Source: Bacteroidia bacterium
Lineage (GTDB): Bacteria > Bacteroidota > Bacteroidia > 2-12-FULL-35-15
Direction of reading: 5' to 3'
DNA length: 64,000 nucleotides
Assembly: GCA_030654175.1 (NCBI GenBank)
Contig: JAURXZ010000024.1
Coordinates: forward strand, 248,001 to 312,000
Shown: piece by piece, positions 36,066 to 39,070 of the stretch
Position numbering within the stretch: position 1 is the first letter of the stretch
Layout of the letters: the number at the start of each line of letters is the position of its first letter
Notes under the pieces: model-generated
Database searches by the model: none
Told to the model about the DNA's origin: nothing
The model's input: the letters and a program-made list of their open reading frames with translations, nothing else
Made by a program: the position numbers and the translations under genes

Positions 36066-37661
36066 TCAAACCTCAAATGAGATGTAAAAAGCAGTACCTT
36101 CATTAAACGTTGTTTTGATATCCCCGTTGATCTGGCCAACCAATGCTTTTACCAACGTAAGTCCTAAAGACCTTGGTTCAATCAACGCTTTTTCCATATC
36201 AAAGCCAACTCCATCATCACTAACCATTAAGGTAAAATTTTTATCTGTACTTGAACAAACAATTTTGATCTTCCCCTTTTCTTTGCCCTTAAAAGCATGT
36301 TTATGAGCGTTAGAGATCAGCTCGTTCAAAATAAGGCCGCAAGGAACTGCAAGCGCAATGTCAAGAAAGGTTTCATGACACATCACGCTGAATTCAATTT
36401 CTGAAACGGTTGGATTGTATGAGTTTTTTATATGTCGAACCAGATCATTAATATATTCACAAAAATCTATCTTCGACAGTGTTTCATTTTGATAAAGCTT
36501 GTCGTGTATCAATGCCATGGTATGAATACGATTCCGGCACTCTTCAAATGCTTTTTTTGCATCTGCATTTTCAATGTATGTTGATTGTAACCCCAACAAG
36601 CCGCTGATCACCGCAAGGTTGTTTTTCACTCTGTGGTGAATTTCCGCCAAAAGAATCTCTTTTTCACGTAAGGAGGATTTTATTTTGGCATTAAATTCTT
36701 GCCTGGCAGTGATATCAGTTATACGAACGGCAAAGTAATTTTTTGAATTAATATTAATAGTTTTGATGGCTGTGGAACCCCAAAATTCATTTCCTTTTCC
36801 TGTTTTATACAATACTTCGCCATGATAACTTCCTGAATCATTCAGGACGGATCTTATTCGATTTATTTCATTTTCGGATGGTTTGTTTTTGTGCAGATCC
36901 AAACCTGTTTTACCAATCAGGTCCTGCTCAGAATCTACTTCAAATAGTTCCTGTGCACGATAATTCACTTTTACGATTTCATTTACATCACTTTCCGATA
37001 AAAAAATAGCATCGTGGGAATTATCAAAAATTGCTTTCATCTGATATTGCAAAAATAAATTAGAGTCGTCCAAAACCTTTTCCGTTTCTGTAGCAACAAT
37101 TATGCTTGAAAATAAGATAACAAAACACCCTATAACAGTTGTTATTTTATATAAAATATCCATTGTTTCCTTTGCAGAATAAGGGATTGTGGGGTCAAGG
37201 AGAAGAGAGAACTGTGTAAAATATAAAACCAAAGTGGCAAAAATTGTAATTATAATACAGAATAAGATCAAGCCAATTTGTTTTTTAATATCAAAAAGCA
37301 CTATTGGTAAGAGAATGAGAGCTATATACATATAATGTATTCCTGCGCTTTCACCAAAGGTGGAGGCCAAAACAAATTGGTGGACAAGAACCCCGAGGTA
37401 TAGAACCAGTTTGGAGGTTGTGTATAAATAAAATTTGTTGTAAAAAGGGATAGAAAAATAAACGATACAACAAAGTCCGGAAAAGAGGGCCACATTGTTA
37501 TAGCCGGAATAAAGAAACCCGAGAAGATAAGGAAAAGTGAAAAACACAGCAATAATTCCGAAACGATTTGTCAGGATCAGCCGTTTAGTATCTGAAGCAC
37601 TTAATTCCTTTGCGGTTCCGGTGTGGGAGATTATTTCCCATAAATTTAATATGGCCTTCAT
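36066..37661 (-). CDS. Sensor histidine kinase: multi-TM, PAS, HisKA_2/HATPase
   Basis: 531 aa. Six hydrophobic segments (about residues 34-190) form an integral membrane sensor. A PAS domain follows (about 205-315), then the HisKA_2-type dimerisation box LLAEIHHRVKNNLAVISGLLGLQ with phospho-acceptor His342, and an ATPase domain with LILNELISNAHKHAF and VSDDGVGFDM. The HisKA_2 class often pairs with stress or light/metabolite response regulators; no receiver gene lies adjacent. The protein ends in GTAFYISFEV. Confidence 0.93.
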   Translation of the reverse strand: MKAILNLWEIISHTGTAKELSASDTKRLILTNRFGIIAVFFTFPYLLGFLYSGYNNVALFSGLCCIVYFSIPFYNKFYLYTTSKLVLYLGVLVHQFVLASTFGESAGIHYMYIALILLPIVLFDIKKQIGLILFCIIITIFATLVLYFTQFSLLLDPTIPYSAKETMDILYKITTVIGCFVILFSSIIVATETEKVLDDSNLFLQYQMKAIFDNSHDAIFLSESDVNEIVKVNYRAQELFEVDSEQDLIGKTGLDLHKNKPSENEINRIRSVLNDSGSYHGEVLYKTGKGNEFWGSTAIKTININSKNYFAVRITDITARQEFNAKIKSSLREKEILLAEIHHRVKNNLAVISGLLGLQSTYIENADAKKAFEECRNRIHTMALIHDKLYQNETLSKIDFCEYINDLVRHIKNSYNPTVSEIEFSVMCHETFLDIALAVPCGLILNELISNAHKHAFKGKEKGKIKIVCSSTDKNFTLMVSDDGVGFDMEKALIEPRSLGLTLVKALVGQINGDIKTTFNEGTAFYISFEV

Positions 37662-37861
37662 ACGTTACAAGTTTACTACAAACTGAAGGATAAAGCAAAG
37701 TTTTATTTGTTTGCTTTAGTATTTCATTTAGTTTTCAACTCTTTAACAGGAATTGAATGGTTCAAAAACATTTCAAATCAAAATTTAGATTTTAATTGTT
37801 AGATTTGCACCGGTAAAGTATTGGAGGATACGTCAAAGATGTGTAATTCATATTAAAAACC

Positions 37862-37934
37862 GGGGAATTAGCTCATTTGGCTAGAGCGTCCCGCAATGCT
37901 GCGGGAAGATGGTCGATTCATCATAATAAAAACC
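37862..37934 (+). pseudogene. Defective tRNA-like copy A (73-bp tandem unit)
   Basis: The first 27 nt equal the tRNA-Ala acceptor strand and D-arm (GGGGAATTAGCTCATTTGGC, then TAGAGCG). The anticodon arm is replaced by the hairpin TCCCGCA/TGCGGGA with an ATGC loop. The T-arm is lost after GGTCGATTC and replaced by ATCATAAT. Not expected to be a functional tRNA. Confidence 0.75.
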
Positions 37935-38007
37935 GGGGAATTAGTTCATTTGGCTAGAGCGTCCCGCAATGCTGCGGGAAGATGGTCGGTTCATCATAAT
38001 AAAAACC
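37935..38007 (+). pseudogene. Defective tRNA-like copy B (73-bp tandem unit)
   Basis: It differs from copy A at only two positions (GTTCAT for GCTCAT in the D-arm and GGTCGGTTC for GGTCGATTC), with the same replaced anticodon hairpin and truncated T-arm. Its 73-bp period leads exactly into the intact tRNA at 38008. Confidence 0.75.
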
Positions 38008-38081
38008 GGGGAATTAGCTCATTTGGCTAGAGCGCTTCGCTGGCAGTGAAGAGGTGGTCGGTTCGAATCCGATATTCTCCA
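38008..38081 (+). tRNA. tRNA-Ala (anticodon GGC)
   Basis: Cloverleaf read by eye. The acceptor GGGGAAT/ATTCTCC has one G-T pair. The D-arm is GCTC...GAGC. The anticodon stem CTTCG/TGAAG carries the loop CTGGCAG (anticodon GGC, alanine). The T-arm is TCGG TTCGAAT CCGA, and the discriminator is A at 38081. CCA is not encoded. It is the third unit of a 73-bp tandem array whose first two units are defective. Confidence 0.92.
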
Positions 38082-38083
38082 CA

Positions 38084-38110
38084 AAAACCCCACATTTAGT
38101 GGGGTTTTCT
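38084..38110 (+). terminator. Terminator directly after tRNA-Ala
   Basis: AAAACCCCAC pairs with GTGGGGTTTT, loop ATTTA, then a T-run. It starts 3 nt after the tRNA and ends 6 nt before the GIY-YIG ORF. Confidence 0.85.
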
Positions 38111-38115
38111 GTTAT

Positions 38116-38358
38116 ATGGAGTTTTGTGTTTATATAATTTATTCTCCCTCAATTGATAAATACTATGTTGGGCATACCGAAAATTTAAATAAACGAATGG
38201 AAGAGCATCGTTTAAAAAAAAATCTCGGAGCAAATGATTGGTTATTGAAATATTCGGAAACCTTTTTTACGCGAAGTGAAGCGATGATTAGAGAAATTGA
38301 AATTAAAAAGAAAAAAAGAAGAACATATTTGGAATGGCTTATTAACACGCCTATCTAG
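38116..38358 (+). CDS. GIY-YIG family nuclease ORF in tRNA locus
   Basis: 80 aa. The GIY-like motif is VYIIYS and the YIG-like motif YYVGHT. The helix has NKRMEEH with the catalytic Arg27 area, and the metal-binding Glu is in EAMIREIEIKKKKRR. It is the UPF0213/YhbQ-like minimal type. It starts 35 bp after the tRNA-Ala and ends 29 bp before a degenerate tRNA-like unit carrying an exact copy of the tRNA 3' end. In Bacteroidota such ORFs are often found beside tRNA genes. A mobile, tRNA-targeting element is a reasonable inference. Confidence 0.85.
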   Translation: MEFCVYIIYSPSIDKYYVGHTENLNKRMEEHRLKKNLGANDWLLKYSETFFTRSEAMIREIEIKKKKRRTYLEWLINTPI

Positions 38359-38387
38359 CCTTAATCAATAACATTTTTTTCAAAACT

Positions 38388-38456
38388 AGAATAGTTAAGG
38401 CTTGAGCGTCCCGCAGTAATGCGGGAAGGTGGTCGGTTCGAATCCGATATTCTCCA
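38388..38456 (+). pseudogene. Degenerate tRNA-like unit D with intact 3' half
   Basis: The 3' 30 nt (AGGTGGTCGG through TTCTCCA) are identical to the tRNA-Ala 3' end. The 5' part AGAATAGTTAAGGCTTGAGCG is degenerate, and the anticodon arm is TCCCGCA/TGCGGGA with a GTAA loop. AGAATA can still pair with TATTCT, so the cloverleaf is partly kept. Confidence 0.75.
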
Positions 38457-38464
38457 CAAAAACA

Positions 38465-38506
38465 AAAGCCGTAAATGCTTAAATTTTAAGCGTTTACGGT
38501 TTTTTG
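38465..38506 (+). terminator. Terminator after tRNA-like unit D
   Basis: GCCGTAAATGCTTAAA and TTTAAGCGTTTACGGT pair with one mismatch and are followed by TTTTTTG. It mirrors the terminator after the intact tRNA. 38507-38605 contains nothing further. Confidence 0.8.
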
Positions 38507-38605
38507 TTTTTGGTTAATTTAGCCTGTATTTGAATCAAAAAGAGGCTTGTTTAACCAAACCATGAATATTTTAACCCTGAAGATTATGGCCTCATTTTAG
38601 TAAAA

Positions 38606-39070
38606 TCACCACTCAATCAAACTCAGGAGTTCTATATTAAACATCTTTTTTATTTGCTCAACCTGCCCGGTACTCATATTAAATTCAAGCACAAAGAATA
38701 CTGCCTTTAAAGCATTTACAACCGACTCCCGATCAGGGAAGTCCTTTTCAGCTGTTAGTCCATCTTTACCACGCACAAATTCAATAAACTCTTCTTTGTT
38801 ACGAATAGTAATTGGAGTTTTAGAAATATCATACTGGTCAATAAAAATGCCTTTTAAGGCCATTGGCAGCCCCTGGGCGAACTGTATTGCATCATCTGGC
38901 GGAATACGGTCACGAATGGCATGCAATACAGCGCGGGTTATTCGTGCAGCCCTGTTGTGATCTGTTTCTAATTCAAGTGCAACTTCATTAATAAAGCGAT
39001 TGCCATCACTCGCATATTGTTCGAAGTTCATTGTTCTGTGCTTGTTTTTATGCTGATTGTTGGTTTCCAT
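38606..39070 (-). CDS. DUF2267 domain-containing protein
   Basis: Small soluble alpha-helical protein. Family signatures are MNFEQYASDGNRFINEVA, AARITRAVLHAIRDRIPPDDAIQFAQGLPMALKGIFIDQYD and a C-terminal VVNALKAVFFVLE. The function of DUF2267 is unknown. An internal ATG at 39031 (MNFEQY) is where the family usually begins, so the first 13 residues may not be translated. It is the last gene of a likely pair with DoxX (30-bp gap). Confidence 0.85.
   Translation of the reverse strand: METNNQHKNKHRTMNFEQYASDGNRFINEVALELETDHNRAARITRAVLHAIRDRIPPDDAIQFAQGLPMALKGIFIDQYDISKTPITIRNKEEFIEFVRGKDGLTAEKDFPDRESVVNALKAVFFVLEFNMSTGQVEQIKKMFNIELLSLIEW

Follow-up and report, generated by a model that had tools for sequence, protein, structure and literature searches.

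The closest described kinds of system are a phage homing endonuclease and a group of fungal mitochondrial insertions. The latter, termed mORFs, are known from atp6, atp9, cox2 and nad3 of Glomus and from atp6 of Allomyces (PMC3630166). The endonuclease ORF there brings with it a 3′ end of the gene, replacing the native one, which remains displaced downstream; in atp9 the endonuclease is of the GIY-YIG type (PMC3630166). SegB of phages T4 and T6 is a free-standing GIY-YIG homing endonuclease of tRNA clusters, and is described as cutting in tRNA genes at the motif RAWTSGAAC (PMC13096335). It drives tandem amplification of tRNA-Tyr together with segB, aided by microhomology that the segB 3′ end shares with the tRNA 5′ end, and its authors pose the donor's sparing from cleavage as an open question (PMC13096335).

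The locus described here lies in a 64-kb window, by which we mean the whole stretch of DNA that was analysed. It resembles mORFs in having an intact gene with an apparently carried-in 3′ end and a native 3′ end displaced beyond the ORF, a parallel drawn from a flank test and from six of eight loci (below). mORFs, however, are larger inserts in mitochondrial protein genes, whereas the targets here are tRNA genes in bacterial chromosomes, and the present element differs from mORFs as described there in its junction hairpin, tandem arrays and mirror-image 5′ forms. SegB is likewise a GIY-YIG nuclease adjoining tRNA genes, but it is phage-borne, and the part of its description available to us contains no unit with a displaced tRNA 3′ end.

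Small GIY-YIG proteins of the UPF0213 type (structure 1zg2), a kind that presumably corresponds to COG2827, have the same single-domain fold as the window's ORF, and we know of no tie between them and tRNA genes. REPINs and RAYTs combine short palindromes at element ends with tandem non-autonomous units, RAYTs being HUH tyrosine transposases. The element here is similar in its terminal palindromes and tandem non-autonomous units, but Pfam gives GIY-YIG only, with no Y1/HUH transposase, and the palindrome lies inside tRNA copies. Among the matches listed in a literature search of titles and abstract beginnings, with preprints and most subscription papers outside its scope, there was no earlier description, nor any instance in which a tRNA target in bacterial chromosomes was combined with hairpin-marked tRNA halves, mirror forms and arrays.

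A nuclease gene at a tRNA-Ala gene

A single tRNA, tRNA-Ala(GGC), is called in the window by ARAGORN, and fragments of the same tRNA lie on both sides of it. The features, all on the forward strand, are as follows.

37862-37888, +: displaced tRNA-Ala 5′ half (positions 1-27), upstream unit 1; 27/27 identical to the intact tRNA
37889-37906, +: junction hairpin TCCCGCAATGCTGCGGGA in the anticodon arm's place, upstream unit 1
37907-37934, +: shortened, diverged tRNA 3′ part and spacer, unit 1 (repeat family D1, 73-nt unit)
37935-37961, +: tRNA-Ala 5′ half, upstream unit 2; 26/27 identical
37962-37979, +: junction hairpin, upstream unit 2 (palindrome search of the window)
37980-38007, +: shortened 3′ part and spacer, upstream unit 2 (repeat comparison)
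38008-38082, +: intact tRNA-Ala(GGC) (ARAGORN; Rfam tRNA, 58.1 bits; sole full-length match in the genome)
38088-38108, +: terminator-like stem CCCCAC/GTGGGG plus TTTT, between tRNA and ORF (read directly)
38116-38358, +: GIY-YIG nuclease ORF, 80 aa (PF01541, E 3.1e-13)
38399-38408, +: D-arm stub GGCTTGAGCG of the displaced tRNA copy (repeat family D2)
38409-38426, +: junction hairpin TCCCGCAGTAATGCGGGA, right end of the element; replaces the anticodon arm in the displaced copy
38427-38463, +: displaced tRNA 3′ half (positions 45-75) plus 6 nt of trailer (37-nt exact repeat of 38052-38088)
38469-38505, +: terminator-like stem after the displaced 3′ end (read directly)

The preliminary description of this DNA had reported an exact 37-bp repeat at an offset of 375, a GIY-YIG ORF behind a tRNA-Ala gene and a terminator for each copy, and all three were borne out: 38052-38088 and 38427-38463 are identical over 37 nt and 375 nt apart, the ORF and the tRNA are recognised by Pfam and ARAGORN, and a terminator-like stem and T run come after each copy. 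By analogy with a second genus, discussed below, the outer stem would be the tRNA gene's original terminator. That description did not mention the hairpin at the junction, the units upstream or the mirror-image elements 5′ of tRNAs. In the window there are two upstream units of 73 nt each (37862-37934 and 37935-38007); in each, the hairpin TCCCGCAATGCTGCGGGA joins a tRNA 5′ half to a shortened 3′ part. The palindrome TCCCGCN6GCGGGA, allowing one mismatch, occurs at three sites in the 64 kb, all at this locus, against 0.04 expected. The stop codon of the ORF lies 40 nt before the stub, in neither the D arm nor the hairpin.

Several familiar explanations were rejected. A tRNA-integrating island with a tyrosine integrase does not fit a 375-nt unit whose only ORFs of at least 50 aa are the GIY-YIG ORF and one 61-aa antisense ORF, neither of them integrase-sized. 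A group I intron is ruled out by a continuous tRNA and by a search of 37500-38900 that gave no match to such introns at E up to 1; in the same region the Rfam scan gave nothing but the tRNA above gathering score. An ordinary tandem tRNA-Ala array, raised at the outset as a competing account, is excluded as well: at E ≤ 1e-5 the source genome holds one full-length match to tRNA-Ala(GGC) and the three fragments seen here, which are halves with hairpins.

The predicted protein belongs to the GIY-YIG superfamily by its PF01541 match, conserved residues and fold matches. Y6, S10, Y17, H31, W42, E60, K64 and K67 are invariant in 45 sequences and R27 is found in at least 90%; the roles of the Arg and Glu residues of this domain are taken from I-TevI. 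With the AlphaFold model (mean pLDDT 90.3), the sole PDB match from Foldseek at E ≤ 0.001 is UPF0213 protein BH0048 (8e-4), followed by Slx1 chains at E 0.025 and up and I-TevI at 0.29, while NCBIfam and PHROGs give weak endonuclease matches only. The protein is a bare catalytic domain, which is a poor fit to target specificity and counts against a homing interpretation. No tblastn match to the ORF at E ≤ 1e-3 was obtained in 50,697 phage records or in 72,556 plasmid records that might have pointed to a phage or plasmid origin. Judged by pN/pS of 0.06-0.35 (16 pairs, with pS near saturation in several), the ORF is under purifying selection. In L139/L154 the GIY-YIG ORF is normal apart from a duplication of five codons in its interior (QIKKMKIKKMK).

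Occupied and empty tRNA sites

Relatives of the ORF came from three sources: 36 genomes of the family (E ≤ 1e-6), which gave 13 places in 10 genomes; genome contigs searched with patterns from the window's ORF, which gave 49 loci; and a phylum sample, in which 96 of 392 genomes had a relative at E ≤ 1e-8 and from which 30 loci were taken, 29 of them new. After leaving out two distant GIY-YIG ORFs of the source genome (L002, L003), neither of which has a tRNA nearby, 91 loci were counted. A search for such ORFs near tRNA 3′ ends had been suggested, and 73 of the 91 indeed lie downstream of a same-strand tRNA within 700 nt (66 within 200 nt; median gap 47 nt). Five others have a same-strand tRNA at the ORF 3′ end (overlap to 60 nt), and 13 have neither, five of these at locus ends and with L044 and L056 placed in this class since their odd ARAGORN calls were not accepted. 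An opposite-strand tRNA within 700 nt upstream was found for one ORF of the 91. By itself, the phylum sample has the tRNA upstream in 24 of 29 and downstream in two.

The labelled ORFs adjoin 13 tRNA types, chiefly Val TAC, Ala GGC, Asp GTC, Arg TCT and Met CAT, and record titles name Bacteroidota, Ignavibacteriota, Cloacimonadota, Chlorobiota and Fibrobacterota. On an ORF tree built from few columns (85 ORFs, 76 labelled, the unlabelled taken as one group; 28 of 80 inner branches open), tRNA identity requires 31 changes against 58.1 in shuffles, with none of 200 shuffles as low and with near-copies adding to the signal. Val, Ala, Asp, Met and Asn cluster; Pro(TGG) and Arg(CCT) do not. Clustering of the tRNA target is shown on this tree of predicted proteins. 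Three ORFs on MAG contigs labelled Paraglaciecola, Streptomyces and Thioalkalivibrio (L037, L038, L053) group with those of Bacteroidota, and these contigs are perhaps misbinned rather than transfers.

The tRNA-Ala site was followed in a second genus, where 161 of 199 genomes searched had a match, and 70 loci were examined (the best 30, ten picked for split matches and 30 others). Empty sites, whose existence the preliminary description had made a check on its proposal, are plentiful: the ORF is present in 16 loci, broken in two of these (L171, L180), and was not found in 54, a figure that includes L162, where just 81 nt are visible after the tRNA and which is not truly judgeable. Upstream units are also missing from 47 of the 54. 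Twelve occupied loci, six from the 70 and six from the ORF searches, were compared with 23 empty-site flanks. DNA beyond the displaced 3′ end matches between 2 and 11 of these flanks in nine of the ten loci where that end is recognisable, the exception being L180, with no match among the 23. DNA beyond the intact tRNA has no empty-site match in ten of the 12, and L125 and L136 have pieces of at most 42 nt only. For example, L136 aligns with the empty locus L168 at 84.9% over 899 nt, starting at the first base past the displaced tRNA end. Since it is the DNA beyond the displaced copy, and not that beyond the intact tRNA, that matches empty sites, insertion at the tRNA, with occupancy varying between relatives, is shown by this comparison of aligned loci.

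Within the window's own genus, eight relatives (L110, L111, L112, L114-L117 and L119) have no GIY-YIG hit at ridA/tRNA-Ala. In all eight ridA stands beside a plain tRNA-Ala in the window's orientation, and in six, not L114 or L119, ileS also adjoins inside the locus. The window differs from them by an extra gene between ridA and the tRNA, which looks like a histidine kinase. In L096 and L109 ridA is on the opposite side.

Which of the two 3′ halves arrived with the ORF can be approached through the T stem. Eight of 22 occupied loci, counting L191 and L020 once as probably one genome, differ in T-stem class between the intact and the displaced copy. The displaced stem has the class of the nearest empty relative in six of the eight and the intact stem in two, where L125 is judged on one strand only and L129 and L193 are near copies. 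The evidence from these six loci leans towards the inner 3′ half having been carried in. The suggestion of a minimal mobile unit that rebuilds the tRNA end gains support both from an architecture that recurs at many loci and several tRNA types and from the match between the DNA past the displaced end and what follows the tRNA in empty sites.

Comparisons between occupied loci point the same way. L136 and L196 are 96-98% identical per 100 nt over most of the tRNA and element, against 74-90% in the flanks (a range that omits the first 100-nt interval, where L196 begins), and L129 and L193 are 97.2% identical over 534 nt against 85-89% beyond. Element similarity so far above flank similarity indicates recent transfer. 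ORF and flank identity are moderately correlated (Spearman 0.40; 153 pairs, 18 loci, with L171, L180 and L185 dropped because no open ORF was found). Further, matches spaced 303-416 nt apart mark tandem arrays in at least 19 genomes of the phylum sample; G329 has five matches 315 nt apart, and L131 two near-identical units. Arrays of this kind would be expected if a host GIY-YIG gene had been captured by tandem duplication of a tRNA region, with no mobility of its own. This passive outcome, already disfavoured, is very improbable in our judgement: the same gene family occurs beside 13 tRNA types in several phyla, near-identical elements sit in diverged flanks, and the empty sites are precise.

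Displaced tRNA copies and the junction hairpin

Across loci, the 3′ part of the adjoining tRNA is repeated after the ORF, often together with trailer and terminator. A hairpin replaces one segment of this displaced copy, and the segment depends on the tRNA type. As a rule it is the anticodon arm in Ala, Val, Arg(TCT), Pro and three of five Met loci, the T arm in Asp, Gly and Leu, and the 5′ side of the anticodon stem in Asn and Lys. The Met loci L014 and L015 have a different palindrome just past the anticodon; in L033, L035 and L059 no hairpin is clearly recognisable. The ORF stop codon often comes from the tRNA D arm (GGATAG|AGC), and in several Asp loci it lies inside the hairpin (TCCCGACTAGTCGGGA). 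Mirror elements occur at L010, L012, L138 and L145, where a displaced 5′ half, a hairpin and an ORF precede an intact tRNA, the hairpin of L145 being a variant form.

The hairpin count was confined to loci where a tRNA lies upstream and the sequence continues for 60 nt or more past the ORF. A TCCCG or TTCCG hairpin lies between -48 and +75 nt from the ORF end in 55 of these 70, the locus described here included, against 9 of 721 control windows; the canonical form is absent from the other 15, several of which have variants. The hairpin is not unique to the element, an idea that was rejected, as the source genome has 52 TCCCGN{2,12}CGGGA palindromes against 12 in a reversed-pattern control. When 31 of these outside the window were read in 45-50 nt of context, many had A and T runs as in terminators, several lay in dispersed repeats and some were unclear; none resembled a tRNA copy. 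Despite such palindromes across the genome, the hairpin's position at the ORF end is specific. L080, L082, L087, L089 and L092 are example palindrome sites, some resembling bidirectional terminators and others inside apparent dispersed repeats.

These palindromes raise the question of whether structure itself is what the enzyme recognises. An Slx1-like GIY-YIG enzyme might act on hairpins or cruciforms in replicating DNA, formed by tRNA arms and by the TCCCG..CGGGA palindrome, with template switching at breaks inserting and amplifying the unit and the palindrome serving as a terminal recognition site. REP palindromes, the recognition sites of RAYT transposases, offer a parallel. In keeping with this, the first five pairs are alike in the 55 hairpins across tRNA types (pair 2 differs in four), although the search pattern itself all but fixes these five pairs, and positions further along entered the count only if they paired. 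Slx1 chains rank high among the fold matches, at the E values of 0.025 and up given above; second palindromes occur in T loops; and similar palindromes are over-represented in the source genome. A generic hairpin cutter would not, however, predict that tRNA target clusters on the protein tree, a pattern that homology arms alone could also produce, and none of the 31 other palindromes, many of them terminator-like, resembled a tRNA copy. We therefore consider recognition of structure unlikely, and prefer homing at tRNA genes.

The second palindromes lie in or near the T loop of displaced copies, for instance GGGTCCCGATAGCTATCGCGGACGAATCCC, and were noted in L048 (2700-2755), L047, L055, L021, L046 and L051. 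The tRNA-Arg upstream units of L033 (1497-1849) and L035 (1-100) have an apparent second anticodon-arm-like piece at the T-arm position (CTGATTGCCTTTCAAGGGCA in L033).

ARAGORN makes odd tRNA calls on some hairpin copies: Phe(aaa) in L020, no type in L044, SeC in L054 and L056, Ile in L050 and Gln in L058. Some copies may thus still fold in a tRNA-like manner, and the copies mimic the tRNA that adjoins the ORF, which would suit a toxin or anticodon-nuclease module whose ORF attacks the tRNA while the hairpin-bearing copies act as decoys or as an RNA antitoxin. Such a module is hard to reconcile with loci whose tRNA is intact although the ORF is missing, as in 54 of 70, or disrupted, as in L171 and L180. 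Moreover, most copies in the loci compared are lost or diverged in one half, and the recognisable fold matches are DNA nucleases. It seems to us quite improbable.

Upstream units accompany the ORF. They occur at 11 of 16 ORF-bearing and 7 of 54 ORF-less loci of the second genus (p 3.5e-5), and at 5 of 10 against 3 of 50 (p 0.002) without the ten loci picked for them, in tests that ignore relatedness and with the best 30 loci ranked by a flank and tRNA match that disfavours upstream units.

A possible homing cycle

We think it likely that the locus holds a mobile element of the homing type, some 375 bp long, with a tRNA gene as its target. The nuclease would cut that gene, which would receive a copy of the element along with the element's own tRNA 3′ end. 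As in other free-standing homing elements, the ORF lies outside introns and inteins and is present or absent at its cognate site. The proposed unit comprises a tRNA 3′ half, trailer, terminator, GIY-YIG ORF, stub and hairpin, so that an empty site would read [tRNA 1-44][45-75]T0 and an occupied one [1-44]([45-75]-T1-ORF-stub-hairpin)n[45-75]T0. We infer that the nuclease breaks an ORF-less tRNA gene, probably near the segment replaced by the hairpin (the anticodon arm in the window's family). Repair would then draw on an element-bearing copy through homologous recombination, the homology arms being the tRNA 5′ half and the displaced 3′ half. The insert would complete the tRNA and shift the native 3′ end downstream. 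With repeated rounds, tandem arrays could build up 3′ of the tRNA, and short units, most of them lacking an ORF, 5′ of it; the 3′ insertion scheme alone does not explain the upstream units. In the displaced copy the hairpin would occupy the would-be cut site, its simplest role being to remove that site, and the terminator-like stem before the ORF may keep expression low.

How an element that rebuilds its own target escapes self-cutting is a question that this cycle raises and that counts against it. A protected, recoded rescue tRNA was rejected as a general rule, since the window's anticodon arm is common in element-free relatives. Four anticodon-arm types are common to ORF-bearing and ORF-less loci of the second genus, and because the intact tRNAs of element-bearing loci have the arm types of ORF-less ones, no protected allele was seen.

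Whether widespread, minimal, intron-free homing elements, with a nuclease of 80 aa and a length of about 375 bp, colonise tRNA genes of Bacteroidota and neighbouring phyla by such cut-and-rescue is in our estimation an evenly balanced proposition. If so, they would break a tRNA gene, provide a replacement tRNA end and leave a near-universal hairpin as a mark on the displaced one. To our knowledge they would rank among the smallest self-mobile DNA elements. They would be a source of tRNA-gene fragments in these genomes, including those that ARAGORN sometimes calls as odd tRNAs, and would offer an explanation for small GIY-YIG genes beside tRNA genes. Homing elements that carry gene ends would be extended from fungal mitochondria to bacterial tRNA genes, in a very small natural system whose selfish nuclease compensates for inserting by restoring the target gene.

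At 37800-37807 of the window, ahead of the displaced 5′ half, lies TAGATTTG, which resembles TAnnTTTG, a motif we take to be the Bacteroidota -7 box consensus. Given this position, the old promoter may still drive the rebuilt tRNA.
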